A stretch of 46,772 nucleotides of DNA, taken from an uncultured Pelagibacteraceae bacterium (lineage in GTDB: Bacteria; Pseudomonadota; Alphaproteobacteria; Pelagibacterales; Pelagibacteraceae). Below are positions 40,002 to 46,527 of the stretch, piece after piece (the stretch's first letter is position 1; each line of letters starts with the position of its first letter). The position numbers and the translations under genes are program-made. The notes under the pieces are model-generated. The model did no database searches. It saw nothing but the letters and a program-made list of their open reading frames with translations, and had not been told where the DNA came from. The DNA lies in assembly GCA_902620585.1 (NCBI GenBank), contig CACNJC010000010.1:1-46772 (forward strand), written 5' to 3'.

Positions 40002-42650
40002 TTAATTAATACTAGATACAATACTTCTTAATTTTTCATCTTCAATAGTTAATTCTTTTACTAAATTTTTATCATTTTTAACAATTTCTTTAGGGGCATT
40101 AGTCGTATATGCCTTATTTTTCAGCTTCTTATTGAGGGCAGAAATTTGCTTATTTATACTTTCTATTTTTTGCAATATTCTTTCCTTCTGAGACACTAAA
40201 TCTACATCTTCATTAAATTTAAGGGAAATTTTTTCTTTTAAAACTAAAATATCTATAGAATTTTTATTGTTAATTTTACTTTTGATAACACTGTTTACAC
40301 GTCCAACTTGTTTAACAAGACTAAGGTTTTTATTAACTATTTTTTTAATATTTCCCGATTTTTCATAAAAGGAAATATCACAAAAAAGTTTTGGTGTAAT
40401 TTTTAATTCAGCTTTTGTAGATCTAATTGTAGAAATTAATTCAATTAAATTATTTATATCAATTTGATTTTTAGTAAATTTGCTTATCTTTTTATAATCG
40501 GGCCAATTAGACGAAATTAAATATTCTTTAAAGATCTTTTTATAACCATTAGAAAACCATAATGACTCGGTAAAAAAAGGAATAAATGGGTGAAGAATTT
40601 TAAGTATATTTGCCATCATAAATGAAGAGAAAAATTTTGCTTCTTTAATTTCATCTTTATTTTTAGAATTCAATATTGGTTTTAAAAACTCTAAGTACCA
40701 ATCACAATAAGAATGCCAAACAAATTGGTATACGTGTTTAGCAGCTTCATCAAATCTAAAAATTTCAATACTTTTAGTGACTATATTTTGTGTTTTGATA
40801 AATTCACTAAATATCCAATGATTTATTGAAAGTTTTACTAAATTAAGATTTATTTTTTTATCTAATTTACAATTATTAAGTCTTAAAAAATTATTTGCAT
40901 TCCATATTTTTGTCATAAAGTTTCTATTACCTGTAATTCTATCTTTTGATAATTTCACATCTCTCCCTGGAGATGCCATTGAAATTAATGTGAACCTTAA
41001 ACTATCAGCTCCAAACTCGTTTATTAGCTCTATTGGATCAACTACATTTCCTTTAGACTTTGACATTTTTTGACCCTTTTCATCCCTTACAAGTGCATGA
41101 ACATATACTTTTTTAAATGGAGTATTTTTCTTAAAATAATTTCCCATCATTAACATTCTTGCTACCCAGAAGAAAATGATGTCGAAACCAGTTACAAGAA
41201 CTGATGTAGGATAAAATTTATCTAACTCTTTGGTTTTGGCTGGCCAACCAAGTGTTGCAAAAGGCCATAACGCAGACGAAAACCATGTATCTAAAACGTC
41301 AGTTTCCTGTCTTAATTTAAATTTTTTATTTTTATTTTTTTTCTTAGCTAGGAATTGTGCGTCTTTTTCATTTTCAGCAACAAAGATATTACCACTATTG
41401 TCGTACCATGCGGGTATTCTATGACCCCACCAAATTTGTCGTGAAATACACCAAGGCTCAATATCATTCATCCATTGAAAAAAAGTTTTAGACCAATTAT
41501 TTGGAAAAAACGAAGTTTTTCCATCTTTAACTATCTTAATTGGTTTTTTTGATAATTTTTTTGCATCTACAAACCACTGTTCTGTTAATAGAGGTTCTAT
41601 TATTGAGTTTGACCTATCTCCATATGGAACCTTATTTTTAATGTTTTCGATTTTTACCAGATTACCTTTTTCCTTTAGTTTTTTAATTAAAAGTTTTCTT
41701 GCTTCAAATCTATCTAAGCCATAAAATTCTTTTATTCCATTTTTATTAATTTTACCGTTTTTTTCAAAAATATTAATTAGTGCCAATTTATTTCTTTTAC
41801 CAACTGCATAGTCATTAAAATCGTGGGCCGGGGTGATTTTAACTGCACCCGAACCTTGTTCTGGATCAGCATAATGATCAGTAATTATCTTAATTCTTCT
41901 ATTAACGATTGGGATTAAAACAAATTTTCCAATTAAATTAGTATACCTTTTGTCTTTAGGGTTTACTGCAATAGCGGTGTCTCCCATCATAGTTTCTGGT
42001 CTGGTAGTCGCAATAGTAATTTTTTGATCAGAGTTCTCTATTGAATAATCGATATAATATAATTGGGATTGAACTTCTTTTTGTATTACTTCTAAGTCAG
42101 AAATTGCTGTTTGAAGCTGAGTATCCCAATTAACTAATTTTTTATCCTTATAAATTAACTTATTATTATAAAGGTCTACAAAAACTTTCAATACAGCCTT
42201 AGATAAATCCTTATCCATTGTAAATCTAGTTCTGGACCAGTCACAAGAACAACCAAGTTTTTTAAGTTGATCTAAAATTATTTCACCAGACTCTTTTTTC
42301 CAATCCCAAACTTTTTTTATAAAATTTTCTCTTCCTAAATCTTTTTTGCTAATTCCTTCTTGTAGTAAGTTTTTCTCGACAACAGCCTGTGTTGCAATTC
42401 CTGCGTGGTCTGTTCCTGGCTGCCATAACGTTTCAAGACCCTTCATTCTATTAAATCTAACAAGAACATCTTGCAGACTATTGTTTAAAGCATGGCCCAT
42501 ATGTAACCTGCCAGTTACGTTGGGAGGTGGAATCACAATTGAAAAACTCTTATTTAATTTACTTTTACGAGGTTTGAATAACCCATTTTTTATCCAGAAA
42601 TCTGAGATTATTTTCTCTTGTTCTATATGATTGTATTTTTTAAATTCCAT
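40002..42650 (-). CDS. valS: Valyl-tRNA synthetase
   Basis: Class I synthetase of 882 residues. HIGH-type motif in [18 protein letters not shown] near residue 45, the CP1 editing domain with [17 protein letters not shown] and [14 protein letters not shown], the KMSKS loop [14 protein letters not shown] near residue 535, and a C-terminal coiled coil (residues 815-880, [18 protein letters not shown]) that contacts the tRNA. Promoter-like TATATT at 42672-42667 precedes the ATG. Confidence 0.97.
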
Positions 42651-42666
42651 TTTTTTGAATATTTAC

Positions 42667-42672
42667 AATATA
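42667..42672 (-). promoter_or_regulatory. Possible -10 box of the valS-ilvD operon
   Basis: TATATT on the minus strand, about 17 nt ahead of the valS ATG. No convincing -35 hexamer is seen in the 80-bp gap (42651-42730), which also ends the sulfotransferase gene. Weak evidence. Confidence 0.25.
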
Positions 42673-42730
42673 GTTTATATCAAAAGAATAAAAACCTAAA
42701 AGCGATAGATTAAATTAATTTAAAAAATTG

Positions 42731-43702
42731 TTATTTAATCAGACTTTTATCTTTAAAAGTGACATAAAGATCTTTTGTTTTTTCGTACATATTATCCGAA
42801 AAATTAATATTAATTTCATTTTTATTAAGATTTTTAATGTAATCAAAATTGTGATCTTTGACTTTATCTAAGTTAATTTTATTTAATAAAACTCTCAGAT
42901 AATTTGGATTTACAAGTTCTTCATATATAACAAAAATACAATTTTTATGAGACGAATATTTGTTAAATAATAATTCATAAAATAAAAACCATTGTTCTAA
43001 CCAATAATTGATTTTATTTTGATCATGAAAATTTATTGGTTGATGCCAGGACTTATGGTTTAAACCAAATTCATTATGACCTAGATAATTCATATATCTT
43101 AAAATAAATTTATCTTTTTTTTGTAATTTACTAAAACGCAAATGTTGATTTAGTAAAGAATATGCATGTTGTAGTGGTTCTCTAATAGGAATTAGAAAAA
43201 TAGAATTAGGTAATATTGAGTTTATTAAATTAATTCTTTTATAATTCAGATTATTTTTGCTTAGATATTTAAATTTTTTTTTTGAAAATAGAATTAATTG
43301 AAGATAATTCAATAATTCATTTTTGATAAACTTTTCATCATTTTTAAAAAAAATTTCATCTAAAGCTTCAGGACTATTGATATCATAAGTAATACCATCA
43401 CCATGTAGCCTTTCTTTTTTTAAAATATTTTCTTTATTAAATAAATTAGAAAAATTTGGTGAGAGTACGAAAGGCATGTTTTTATATGTTAAAGATGCAT
43501 GCTGATTAAATGAATAAATAAAATTCAAAATGCTAGTTGTGCCTGATCTTGGTAGACCTGATATAAAAATATGTAATTGATTTTTGATATCATTATTTTT
43601 TAAATAAAAAAACTTTTCAAATTCAAATAAAGATTTGTTAATAAATTTGTTGCCAAGAACAATATCGTGAAACAATTTTTGAATAAAATTATAATTTTGC
43701 AT
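42731..43702 (-). CDS. Sulfotransferase family protein (PAPS-dependent type)
   Basis: Protein of 323 residues with the sulfotransferase fold marks. The 5'-phosphosulfate loop FISGLPRSGTTSILNF lies at residues 46-61 (P-loop 49-56). The 3'-phosphate segment SIFLIPIREPLQHAYSLLNQ, about residues 168-187, holds the Arg and Ser expected to bind the PAPS 3'-phosphate. Family knowledge says these enzymes move sulfuryl from PAPS to hydroxyls or amines of glycans, lipids or small molecules; the acceptor is unknown. No signal peptide or TM helix, so cytosolic. It is the last of four overlapping genes (14-nt overlap) headed by an arylsulfotransferase-family gene, with an APS-kinase-like gene upstream. 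Confidence 0.82.
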   Translation of the reverse strand: MQNYNFIQKLFHDIVLGNKFINKSLFEFEKFFYLKNNDIKNQLHIFISGLPRSGTTSILNFIYSFNQHASLTYKNMPFVLSPNFSNLFNKENILKKERLHGDGITYDINSPEALDEIFFKNDEKFIKNELLNYLQLILFSKKKFKYLSKNNLNYKRINLINSILPNSIFLIPIREPLQHAYSLLNQHLRFSKLQKKDKFILRYMNYLGHNEFGLNHKSWHQPINFHDQNKINYWLEQWFLFYELLFNKYSSHKNCIFVIYEELVNPNYLRVLLNKINLDKVKDHNFDYIKNLNKNEININFSDNMYEKTKDLYVTFKDKSLIK

Positions 43703-44054
43703 TAACTTTTTTTCTAATTTGATGATATATTATAAAAATTAAACTAACCTCAATTAAGCCAATAAAAGATAATACTAAATCTAAGAACGGCCTTGATAAG
43801 GAGCTTAAAAACATCGTTATAATAAGTATTATAAAGATTATCAAAAGTATTTTCAAAGATGTTGTGAATAATGACTTCGCATAACTTAAAATTTTTTTTT
43901 CTTTTTCTAAATCGGATGTATTTTTCAAGTAAAATAAATTGATTATTTTTTTTAATATTTTTAGATTTGATTTTAAAATATCTTTAAGTTTAGAAAATTT
44001 CAAAAATTCATAAACAAAAATTGTAAAACAGATAAGTAATATATGATTAATCAA
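43689..44054 (-). CDS. Three-helix membrane protein of the sulfotransferase operon, unknown function
   Basis: Unrecognised protein of 121 residues. Hydrophobic segments at residues 4-20, 67-86 and 90-111; between the first two is a Lys-rich amphipathic region (22-61), perhaps a cytosolic coiled coil. No catalytic motif. The start appears to be TTG at 44054, overlapping the previous gene by 8 nt; there is no ATG before residue 81, so the start is uncertain by a few codons. It overlaps the sulfotransferase gene by 14 nt. Tight coupling on both sides argues for a role in the same process, possibly an anchor or transport subunit (inference). Confidence 0.65.
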   Translation of the reverse strand: MINHILLICFTIFVYEFLKFSKLKDILKSNLKILKKIINLFYLKNTSDLEKEKKILSYAKSLFTTSLKILLIIFIILIITMFLSSLSRPFLDLVLSFIGLIEVSLIFIIYHQIRKKVNAKL

Positions 44055-44265
44055 TTTTATTTTGACTTTTTTCTTTAATTTCTTTTTTTTTTTTTAATAA
44101 TCTTTTAATAGGAAACCATATTAATCCTAAAATAGCGGCAAAAATTGCAATTATTATTCCTATAGTTGCAGCTATGACTCCTCCACCTACGCCGGGACCT
44201 AAATAGGCAATTGATGGAGTATTCATATTTAAAATTAAAAATATAATTAAAGCTAATTTATACAT
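44047..44265 (-). CDS. Small YLGPG-motif membrane protein, unknown function
   Basis: Protein of 72 residues: signal-like N-terminus (residues 3-20, ending SIA), then YLGPGVGGG (21-29), a long hydrophobic helix (30-51), and a strongly basic tail (KRLLKKKKEIKEKSQ). The layout of signal peptide, glycine-rich motif at the mature N-terminus, TM helix and Lys cluster resembles small bacterial proteins with YIDPG or YLGPG motifs found near envelope-polymer genes; that parallel is from memory and not a family assignment. It overlaps the arylsulfotransferase-like gene by 13 nt and the next gene by 8 nt. Confidence 0.7.
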   Translation of the reverse strand: MYKLALIIFLILNMNTPSIAYLGPGVGGGVIAATIGIIIAIFAAILGLIWFPIKRLLKKKKEIKEKSQNKID

Positions 44266-45602
44266 TTCTTATTCTCCACTAATGATTTAAATTTTTCAAT
44301 AAAAAATTTATCTTCTATGACTCTACTCCAGCTAATAAATCCAATGTTACCATTTTTGCTTCTATTAACAAATTCCCACTCCTTTTCTCCTTTGTTATTG
44401 AATAAAATAATTCTTCCATGATTCTGTTCTTCTACCATTAATGACCCGTCTTTAAAAAAATGAGATAACCCCTGTGTTTCAGTTTTAAAGTTTTCTTTCT
44501 TTAGTTGGTTGTTGAAAATCTTTTTAAAATTTTTTTTTTCAAAATTATAAATCAAAATCTCCGAGTGTTCATTGTTGAAAATAAAATTATTATTGTTAAA
44601 AATTGAAATTTCTTTATTAGAAATAATATCTACATCATGTTGTTCTGCAAATGGTCCAATGATATAATTTAAAATTTTGTTTGTACTAGGTCTATAATGA
44701 ATAATCGCAGATTTGAAACGTATGCTCAAAAATAAATCACCTTTTTTCCAATAATCTCCATCAGTTAAAACAGGCTCGATATCATTCAAATGAATAAGAT
44801 CGCCATTTTTAAAGCTCTGATGATTAAAGCCATAATTTTGTGGTAAAATTTTATTTTCAACTAAAATTTCAAATACGCTTTTCTTATAAAGTATTTTACC
44901 ATCAGAATTAATTTTCATAATTGCATCATCGTGAAAATCCTCAATTTGATATTCATTTATATATTTTGAAAAAGGTCTTAACTGACCCGGTACCCAAATA
45001 TTTTTTTCATGGTCTAGCATTTTGCTATGGTGAAATTTTTCTTCCTCATTTATCCATATCAAATTTGAGCAAAAATCTATTTTAAATTCTATTGAATAAT
45101 CACTATCACTTATTAGTGAACCGTCTTCTAGAACTAATGGGTGTCTATATTCAAATCTAATTGGTGCATCATCTATGTTAAGCCTTGCAAATTCCTTGAT
45201 ATTGCTAAGTCTCTGATTCATTTCGTCTATATTATGTTTATAGGTATGAATTTTTTTGAAATTTTTTAAATCGATCACTTCGACAACTGATCTGCTTAAG
45301 CTGTGATCGTATCTAGGTAATATTAATAGAGCTTCTCTTTGATTTGGTATAAATTGTTGAAAATTCTGTTTATCTTTATGTTTCTTTAATGGTGGTGGTT
45401 TGTTGATATTAAAAGTCTTATATTTAATCATTGTTTTTGCAGTCTTTGGGATTTCAGATAGAAATATTGTTATTTCTTTTAAAGAGTGAAAATTTTTTCG
45501 GCCTTCAAAGTGACCCCTTAATAATGAAGCAAGTAAAATTAAACCAATTATAGATATTACAATTGCTAATAATGCAGGATAAGAGAAGATTTTTTTAAGC
45601 AT
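44253..45602 (-). CDS. Arylsulfotransferase (ASST) family membrane-anchored protein
   Basis: Protein of 449 residues with an N-terminal TM anchor (residues 7-28) and a large outside domain. Repeated short motifs suggest a beta-propeller: HDDAIMKINSDGKILYKKSV, GDLIHLNDIEPVL, WKKGDLFLSIRFKSAIIHY, GPFAEQHDVDII and KNGNIGFISWSRVI. This order (HDD, HLND, GDLxLSxR, QHD) fits the arylsulfotransferase group, whose classic members move sulfuryl between phenols without PAPS. Conserved-looking His residues in HDD, HLND and QHD are candidates for catalysis; I cannot align them to the E. coli AssT His436. It heads a four-gene overlapping operon ending in a PAPS-type sulfotransferase. Confidence 0.75.
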   Translation of the reverse strand: MLKKIFSYPALLAIVISIIGLILLASLLRGHFEGRKNFHSLKEITIFLSEIPKTAKTMIKYKTFNINKPPPLKKHKDKQNFQQFIPNQREALLILPRYDHSLSRSVVEVIDLKNFKKIHTYKHNIDEMNQRLSNIKEFARLNIDDAPIRFEYRHPLVLEDGSLISDSDYSIEFKIDFCSNLIWINEEEKFHHSKMLDHEKNIWVPGQLRPFSKYINEYQIEDFHDDAIMKINSDGKILYKKSVFEILVENKILPQNYGFNHQSFKNGDLIHLNDIEPVLTDGDYWKKGDLFLSIRFKSAIIHYRPSTNKILNYIIGPFAEQHDVDIISNKEISIFNNNNFIFNNEHSEILIYNFEKKNFKKIFNNQLKKENFKTETQGLSHFFKDGSLMVEEQNHGRIILFNNKGEKEWEFVNRSKNGNIGFISWSRVIEDKFFIEKFKSLVENKKCIN

Positions 45603-45635
45603 CTATTTTTAATAGCAAAAAAAGGCACTAATTTA

Positions 45636-45655
45636 TATATAATTGTAATTATATA
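45636..45655. promoter_or_regulatory. Inverted repeat and -10 box ahead of the ASST operon
   Basis: Nine-base arms TATATAATT (45636-45644) and AATTATATA (45647-45655) around a GT centre. On the minus strand this contains TATAAT (45653-45648), which would start transcripts near 45641, about 40 nt before the ASST ATG. The symmetry could be an operator, or chance in such AT-rich DNA. Confidence 0.35.
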
Positions 45656-45684
45656 AAAATTAAAAATTTATGAATATTTAAAAT

Positions 45685-46104
45685 TTACTCTATTTTACTT
45701 AAAGCTTTTGAAATTTTTAGCGCCCAATATTCCGCATTTTTTGAATTTATTTCAAAATCAAACTTGTCAGGATTTACAAACATTTCGTTAGTATCATCAA
45801 ATCTGCTTTTTTTGATGGTATTCATCCAAATTATAACATCAGGATTAAATAATTTTCTAGCCTCAGGTGTTGGACAAATAAAATCAGCTATTACATGAAA
45901 ACCTTTTTTTTTATATTCATTGGCAAATTCAGCCATCCTAATTGCTTGTCGATTTCTTCCTTCAAATGAAAAATCCCAATCATTAGCCTTGGATCTTATC
46001 TTATCTGCGTTTAACCACTTTGCTTTCATTATAGGGACTAATTTTGAAGCTAGGGTAGTTTTGCCTGAGCCAGGAAGACCCATTATAAGTATTTTTTTGG
46101 CCAT
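45685..46104 (-). CDS. APS-kinase-like P-loop kinase, short
   Basis: Protein of 139 residues. Walker A GLPGSGKTT (residues 9-17), then NADKIR (Asp34 region, APS kinase DGDNxR-like), WDFSFEGRNRQAIRMAEFAN (compare the FSxxDRxENIRR helix) and IADFICPTPEARKLF (compare FISPYR). These match adenylylsulfate kinase in order, so it may phosphorylate APS to PAPS. It is about 50 residues shorter than CysC, and its C-terminal lid reads SRFDDTNEMFVNPDKFDFEI rather than the usual FTGIDDPYE. I recall similar short proteins in marine phages, unverified. No ATP sulfurylase gene is in the window. 82 bp ahead of the ASST gene, same strand. Another small-molecule kinase is possible. Confidence 0.65.
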   Translation of the reverse strand: MAKKILIMGLPGSGKTTLASKLVPIMKAKWLNADKIRSKANDWDFSFEGRNRQAIRMAEFANEYKKKGFHVIADFICPTPEARKLFNPDVIIWMNTIKKSRFDDTNEMFVNPDKFDFEINSKNAEYWALKISKALSKIE

Positions 46105-46331
46105 TTTAAAATTTACAATTAATTTTAATACAAATTTTATTATTTATACCATTTAAAATTTTAAATCTTAAATAGTATTTAATTAAAAGAATTACGTAAT
46201 TAGTGTTATTAATTTTTAATAGATTATCAGTTACTAGCTGTACTTTTTTCTTTTGTTGATATAATTATATTCATAATAATGATATTTAGTTATTCCAATA
46301 AAACATAACAATTGGTTAACTCAATTAGATT
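46105..46331. other. Longest gene-free stretch, AT-rich, with two palindromes
   Basis: 227 bp between the kinase gene and tRNA-Cys. No plausible ORF or structured RNA was seen. It contains a 16-bp perfect palindrome ATTTAAAATTTTAAAT (46151-46166), a 12-bp one AATTACGTAATT (46190-46201) and a TATAAT (46260-46265) without a clear -35. Promoters for the divergent kinase and tRNA-Cys should lie here. Confidence 0.4.
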
Positions 46332-46405
46332 GGCCACGTGGCGGAATGGTTACGCAGAGGATTGCAAATCCTTTTATCCCAGTTCGATTCTGGGCGTGGC
46401 CTCCA
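46332..46405 (+). tRNA. tRNA-Cys (anticodon GCA)
   Basis: 74-nt tRNA. The acceptor GGCCACG pairs with CGTGGCC, the discriminator is U and CCA is encoded (46403-46405). The anticodon loop ATTGCAAAT gives GCA, between AGGAT and ATCCT stems. T-arm AGTTCGATTCT is present. 46 nt of A/T tracts separate it from tRNA-Asn, so the two may share a transcript. Confidence 0.97.
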
Positions 46406-46451
46406 AAAAAATTAGTTGTTTTTTTTTTTAAAAAAAGTATGTTCATTTCAT

Positions 46452-46527
46452 TCCTCGGTAGCTCAGTTGGTAGAGCAGTTGACTGTTAATCAATTGGTCG
46501 CAGGTTCGAGTCCTGCCCGAGGAGCCA
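46452..46527 (+). tRNA. tRNA-Asn (anticodon GUU)
   Basis: 76-nt tRNA. The acceptor TCCTCGG pairs with CCGAGGA, the discriminator is G and CCA is encoded (46525-46527). The anticodon loop CTGTTAA between GTTGA and TCAAT gives GUU. D-arm AGCTCAGTTGGTAGAGC and T-arm AGGTTCGAGTCCT are standard. It ends 5 bp from the stop of the convergent regulator gene. Confidence 0.97.

Follow-up and report, generated by a model that had tools for sequence, protein, structure and literature searches.

An Overlapping Arylsulfotransferase-Sulfotransferase Gene Module of SAR11 and Other Gram-Negative Bacteria as a Candidate Unit for Sulfation across the Inner Membrane

Introduction

Bacterial sulfation outside the cytosol faces a supply problem, as the donor, 3'-phosphoadenosine 5'-phosphosulfate (PAPS), is cytosolic. 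To our knowledge, two-step sulfation is known from one antibiotic pathway. It belongs to caprazamycin in Streptomyces, where a PAPS-dependent sulfotransferase and an arylsulfate sulfotransferase (ASST) are found in one gene set (Tang et al. 2013, cited in PMC4257720); there, the PAPS-dependent Cpz8 makes a phenolic sulfate ester, which is the donor for the ASST Cpz4 (PMC4257720). In AssT of Escherichia coli CFT073 (PF05935; PDB entries 3ELQ, 3ETS, and 3ETT), the sulfohistidine is His436, which acts together with His252, His356, Asn358, Arg374, and Thr501 (PMC13426309). Enzymes of the ASST type can use many small aryl sulfates; most of their natural acceptors are unknown (PMC13426309). Here we describe a stretch of 46,772 nucleotides (the window) from an uncultured Pelagibacteraceae bacterium of the SAR11 order Pelagibacterales (assembly GCA_902620585.1, contig CACNJC010000010.1), in which an ASST-family β-propeller, two small membrane proteins (sm1 and sm2), and a PAPS-type sulfotransferase (ST) are encoded by four overlapping minus-strand genes at positions 42731 to 45602. 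These genes very probably form one sulfation unit, best called a variant of two-step sulfation. The four-gene module is mobile and, as far as the literature was searched, undescribed: our searches found no description of an ASST-ST operon or of a SAR11 sulfotransferase module. As its mode of action we propose, with a probability of about 0.5, that two enzymes relay sulfuryl groups across the inner membrane, the ST inside feeding the anchored propeller outside.

Results

Five consecutive open reading frames were confirmed on the minus strand at 42731 to 46104, bounded by valS on one side and a tRNA-Cys/tRNA-Asn pair on the other. As foreseen in the original prediction, which was made from the letters of the window, the last four overlap. 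The genes for the propeller (449 amino acids [aa]; 44253 to 45602) and sm1 (72 aa; 44047 to 44265) share 13 nucleotides, those for sm1 and sm2 (121 aa; 43689 to 44054) share 8, and those for sm2 and the ST (323 aa; 42731 to 43702) share 14. The start codon of sm2 is a TTG, and a GTG at 44066 is a possible alternative. The remaining gene (139 aa; 45685 to 46104) encodes an APS-kinase-like P-loop kinase (APS, adenosine 5'-phosphosulfate); separated from the propeller gene by 82 nucleotides, it adjoins the cassette and lies outside the conserved module.

The prediction of a membrane-bound ASST-family propeller was borne out. The protein matches Arylsulfotran_2 (PF14269; E value of 2.3e-32, 113 bits against a cutoff of 27), and hydropathy points to a membrane anchor in its hydrophobic residues 1 to about 33. 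When its AlphaFold model (mean pLDDT of 83.8) was compared with solved structures using Foldseek, Cpz4 (9KF4/9KF6) came out on top (E value of 7e-11), AssT reached an E value of 3e-9, with the AssT structures 3ETT, 3ETS, 4P04, and 4P05 within the first ten matches, and the template modeling (TM) scores were about 0.5. Cpz4 was also the top sulfotransferase match in profile searches, where the QHD, S-x-R, and F-x-N motifs of the two proteins align. The propeller fold is common to the window protein and AssT, and the conserved histidines and the H-x-N motif of the window protein, whose spacing agrees, are putative counterparts of those in AssT. The window protein differs from AssT in lacking the N-terminal β-sandwich, in having a transmembrane anchor, in belonging to PF14269, and in usually occurring with an ST and sm1. 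The two Pfam families meet in a gammaproteobacterial propeller homolog, which also passes PF05935 (25.2 bits against 24.2). Searches of the PDB with single propeller sequences using phmmer gave no match, whereas profiles and Foldseek did.

Across 40 propeller homologs, nine residues never vary (H191, H192, H271, N273, S293, Q321, H322, N337, and G378), and R295 is kept in 36. The candidate catalytic residues are H192 (codon at 45027 to 45029, minus strand), H271 (44790 to 44792), N273 (44784 to 44786), R295, Q321, H322 (44637 to 44639), and N337.

The ST was correctly foreseen as a sulfotransferase with a PAPS loop. It matches Sulfotransfer_3 (PF13469; E value of 5.9e-11, 43.5 bits against a cutoff of 27) and carries both PAPS-binding sequence motifs, the 5'-phosphosulfate loop GLPRSGTT (43535 to 43558, minus strand) and the 3'-phosphate motif R174-x-P-x5-S182 (43157 to 43183, minus strand). 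R52 and G54 of the former and R174, P176, and S182 of the latter are invariant in 26 homologs. By Foldseek, the nearest solved structures to its AlphaFold model are the tyrosylprotein sulfotransferases TPST1/2, which have the same PAPS motifs, but the similarity is weak (TM-score of about 0.4, 11 to 20% identity), and the split or fused sm2 membrane domain sets the ST apart from them.

By hydropathy, the ST has no transmembrane segment, and such segments are found in sm2 and sm1, which were rightly expected to be small membrane proteins of no known family: neither scores above the cutoff for any Pfam or NCBIfam family. The sm2 protein has two to three hydrophobic segments. Its profile matches inside sulfotransferase reading frames of 470 to 484 aa in three loci (L101, L102, and L107 in our numbering), and in Gammaproteobacteria, Bacteroidota, and some others the N-terminal membrane part of an ST of 450 to 497 aa corresponds to sm2 or takes its place. 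Such fusion in other lineages ties sm2 and the ST together. In sm1, a signal-peptide-like start is followed by a YLGPG motif (44191 to 44205, minus strand), one transmembrane helix, and a lysine-rich tail. The tyrosine and the first glycine of this YxGPG motif are present in 49 of 49 distinct homologs, again followed by a transmembrane helix and a basic tail, and sm1 adjoins the ASST or ST gene across phyla. Many sm1 homologs seem to have a signal peptide that ends just before the tyrosine. Judged by its sequence, sm1 should span the membrane with the YxGPG motif outside and the basic tail inside.

An enzyme pair of this kind might also serve detoxification, with the ST sulfating foreign phenols or steroids in the cytosol and the propeller disposing of the sulfate, or swapping it, outside. 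The ASST and SULT families are known to sulfate phenols, and the patchy, mobile distribution described below would suit such a role. However, the ST is closer to TPST than to the detoxifying SULT enzymes, sm1 and sm2 would be left without a clear role, and the streamlined SAR11 bacteria are an unlikely home for the function, so we regard detoxification as quite unlikely.

We investigated the distribution of the module in 297 Pelagibacterales genomes, among which the window's own genome is 85% complete, and compared larger stretches around the propeller gene in the other SAR11 carriers. The propeller is rare in SAR11, being found in 12 of the 297 genomes. The set of ASST, sm1, sm2, and ST genes is retained in nearly all of the other 11 carrier loci; the ASST gene is divergent in L020 and L021, sm2 is not detectable in L022, L018 stops at a contig edge, and L023, the most distant, has no ST match. 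Beyond the cassette, the flanks of these loci have no close homologs in common with the window, which indicates that the cassette sits at differing chromosomal sites.

When species genomes were scanned with the propeller alignment, 62 loci were found. With ASST as bait, an ST was found near 56 of the 68 copies that had downstream room, and sm1 likewise near 56 of 68; these counts are not deduplicated, and the distinct ASST-ST pairs number 50. The gene order and near-identical overlaps (−13 for ASST/sm1 in most, −8 for sm1/sm2, and −14 for sm2/ST) are repeated in dozens of loci, so that the layout is beyond chance. Hosts outside SAR11 include SAR116, a Prochlorococcus single-amplified genome, Rhodobacterales, Novosphingobium, Gammaproteobacteria, Pseudomaricurvus, Neptuniibacter, a Desulfobacteraceae metagenome-assembled genome, and several Bacteroidota; in these hosts, sm2 and the ST are often one fused protein. 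Among annotated genomes of cultured strains, the module is present in Novosphingobium capsulatum, Rhodobacter sp. CZR27, Sagittula sp. P11, Tateyamaria omphalii, and Paracoccus saliphilus. The gene order in Tateyamaria and Paracoccus is sm1, fused ST, and ASST, and the same parts are kept across differing gene orders and in both the split and the fused sm2-ST forms. Distances among the ASST proteins correlate with those among the STs (Mantel r of 0.86 overall; within SAR11, r of 0.56 with P of about 0.0015).

A viral origin of the module was considered and rejected: two scans of viral contigs and a tblastn search of a phage collection gave no relative, and PHROGs gave no match for ASST or ST. 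Tandem duplicate propeller genes were observed at L083:8280-11326, L089:9905-12755, and L092:8363-11314; the first and second of these loci have no nearby ST or sm1.

The distribution bears on the main rival explanation, in which the two enzymes act in parallel on a single surface molecule. The cytosolic ST would sulfate a surface glycan or lipid precursor, and the periplasmic propeller, with seawater aryl sulfates as donor, would separately sulfate the product after export, which agrees with the broad use of aryl sulfates by ASST enzymes (PMC13426309). Some propellers do occur without an ST, an ST homolog in Rhodobacteraceae SC52 lies beside an O-antigen ligase and lipopolysaccharide genes, and the Tateyamaria module lies beside glycosyltransferases. 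Yet the flanks are mostly not glycan clusters, and the fact that, across phyla, both enzymes are tightly coupled to one and the same pair of small membrane proteins points to an intermediate that they share. We therefore consider parallel action unlikely, and favor the relay.

The original prediction joined all five genes in one function, resting on families that should keep company in other genomes. Four of them do so across phyla, but the kinase does not: it adjoins the cassette in none of the other 11 SAR11 carriers, its adjacency being limited to the window's genome, and it is found in 210 of the 297 genomes, mostly without a cassette. On this synteny and distribution, we rejected the kinase as a cassette member. 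Its likeness to APS kinase stood in part. The protein has a P-loop and matches APS_kinase (PF01583; E value of 4e-9, 37.1 bits against a cutoff of 21.1), sharing with CysC (PF01583/TIGR00455) the P-loop and the N-terminal half, but it covers only profile positions 4 to 90 of 152 (60%), has no C-terminal match, and scores 28.4 bits against the NCBIfam apsK equivalog TIGR00455, far under the cutoff of 138.7. A working five-gene cassette, with the kinase making its PAPS, would be in keeping with the location on the same strand only 82 nucleotides away and with the presence of the kinase somewhere in 11 of the 12 SAR11 carriers. Moreover, in all 20 sampled genomes of our family f2, a member of the kinase family is located about 1 kb from aprA, and this link makes APS a plausible substrate. 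Weighed against the synteny, the distribution, and the missing last third of the APS kinase model, such a five-gene model is improbable. The kinase may take part in PAPS supply, but as an unlinked gene.

The original prediction also suggested looking for a sulfurylase gene elsewhere in the genome, and none turned up: the 12 SAR11 carriers, the window's own genome included, gave no match to ATP sulfurylase (PF01747), and PAPS supply in these carriers needs another route. AprA, which can form APS from sulfite, is encoded in 12 of 12 carriers, and a sulfite-APS-PAPS route in SAR11 is plausible. In "Candidatus Pelagibacter ubique," sat and cysDN are reported as missing, and cysC and aprA are tabulated for the same five strains (PMC5069961). 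The PF01507 matches in the carriers cover about 77 positions of reading frames of about 524 aa, which have the size and place of GuaA; they were rejected as CysD or PAPS reductase. With no PAPS reductase seen, PAPS in the carriers would be useful for sulfation only. Outside SAR11, a full-length APS kinase was found in 8 of 9 module genomes and a strong CysD/CysH-type match in 8 of 9 searched, and PAPS should normally be on hand in these hosts.

These results also speak to an inward flow, in which the propeller would capture the sulfuryl groups of external sulfate esters, and the ST would use them inside to make PAPS from PAP. Sulfotransferase reactions are reversible, and the usual route to PAPS is missing in the SAR11 carriers. 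Nevertheless, the carriers show no PAPS reductase, and most carriers outside SAR11 can make PAPS normally, which leaves inward flow highly improbable beside an outward relay.

Several further genes related to PAPS supply were observed. Elsewhere in SAR11, a 124-aa HxGH nucleotidyltransferase (GRWQPFHDGH ... ISATKIR) usually comes after the kinase or is fused to it; in all 12 genomes sampled from the window's genus, the nucleotidyltransferase gene is part of the aprBA operon. Loci that show these arrangements are L119:2322-7496, L121:1-3493, L137 to L148, L025:1123-1902, and, in the window's own genome, G000:C5:44028-47592. The nucleotidyltransferase is a candidate for the ATP sulfurylase that sat-less SAR11 lack, or for another enzyme that processes APS in them. 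A single phage family of fused proteins, phrog_10255, matches both the window's kinase (45685 to 46104; 97.5 bits) and a nucleotidyltransferase at L116:6894-7268 (85.7 bits), which indicates that some phages carry the two as one gene. ATP sulfurylase scored over the cutoff in 14 of the 297 SAR11 genomes, and none of these 14 carries the ASST/ST cassette; it lies beside a longer APS kinase at G101:C5:124393-125539, G241:C2:27053-28181, and G220:C9:5410-7924.

The interval in which the cassette lies (42651 to 46331), between valS (40002 to 42650, minus strand) and the tRNA-Cys and tRNA-Asn genes (46332 to 46527, plus strand), is a variable insertion spot in the window's genus. In genome G108, valS directly abuts the same tRNAs, representing an empty site. 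Sugar ABC transporter genes occupy the spot in G106, G226, and G186, and other genes do so in G304 and G306.

Discussion

The original prediction placed a PAPS enzyme inside the cell and an ASST-type protein outside, and this arrangement fits both the predicted topology and the caprazamycin precedent. In the relay that we propose, the ST, held at the cytosolic face by sm2, would, as its PAPS motifs suggest, move the sulfuryl group of PAPS to a membrane-soluble or aryl carrier. The carrier would then cross or reorient in the membrane, possibly aided by sm1. As judged by conserved residues and homology, the propeller at the outer face would accept the sulfuryl group at a histidine of its active site, probably H322, and hand it to a glycan, a lipid, or a secreted molecule. 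The PAPS would have to be supplied by genes elsewhere in the genome; for SAR11, the likeliest route is formation of APS from sulfite by AprBA followed by a kinase such as the 139-aa protein. What the analysis itself shows is which genes make up the set and in what order, how widely the set is conserved across phyla, the joining of sm2 to the ST, the anchor of the propeller, and active-site-type residues that are kept intact; the donor, the acceptor, the direction, and the feeding of one enzyme by the other are inferred, in part by analogy with the caprazamycin pair.

Several points weigh against this relay. The structural likeness is only moderate for the propeller (TM-scores of about 0.5 to Cpz4 and AssT) and lower for the ST (about 0.4 to TPST). 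The putative equivalence of H322 and AssT His436 was reached via Cpz4 and motif spacing, as a trimmed propeller profile failed to bring up AssT for a residue alignment. Five ASST relatives (L083, L087, L089, L090, and L106) have neither ST nor sm1, and a propeller alone can thus be useful. Among the neighboring genes, which are only partly annotated, none for a donor or an acceptor was observed to accompany the cassette, and no type III polyketide synthase like that of caprazamycin was identified beside it. Finally, the 12 SAR11 carriers searched have no ATP sulfurylase of either kind, and their PAPS supply is putative.

Although the hosts differ greatly in their lipids and quinones, no parts but these travel together, which leads us to the guess of a common carrier. 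A quinol would suit such varied hosts as SAR11, cyanobacteria, and Bacteroidota; the carrier could also be, for example, the invariant sm1 tyrosine near the mature N terminus. Tentatively, the module may be a general, portable Gram-negative device for extracellular sulfation, in which cytosolic PAPS charges a common aryl or lipid carrier and a sulfohistidine propeller hands the group over.

The module differs from the caprazamycin pair in that its propeller is anchored in the membrane, its ST has a membrane protein as partner or fused domain, and the YxGPG protein is added; it comes without antibiotic genes and is found in Gram-negative hosts of several phyla. If the relay holds true, with a compact four-gene version of two-step sulfation in SAR11 and several other phyla, sulfation across the membrane would be a widespread capacity among bacteria, and two unnamed membrane families, sm1 and sm2, would gain a role. 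A test system would be ready in cultured Rhodobacterales and Novosphingobium, and PAPS supply in sulfurylase-free SAR11 becomes a concrete question.

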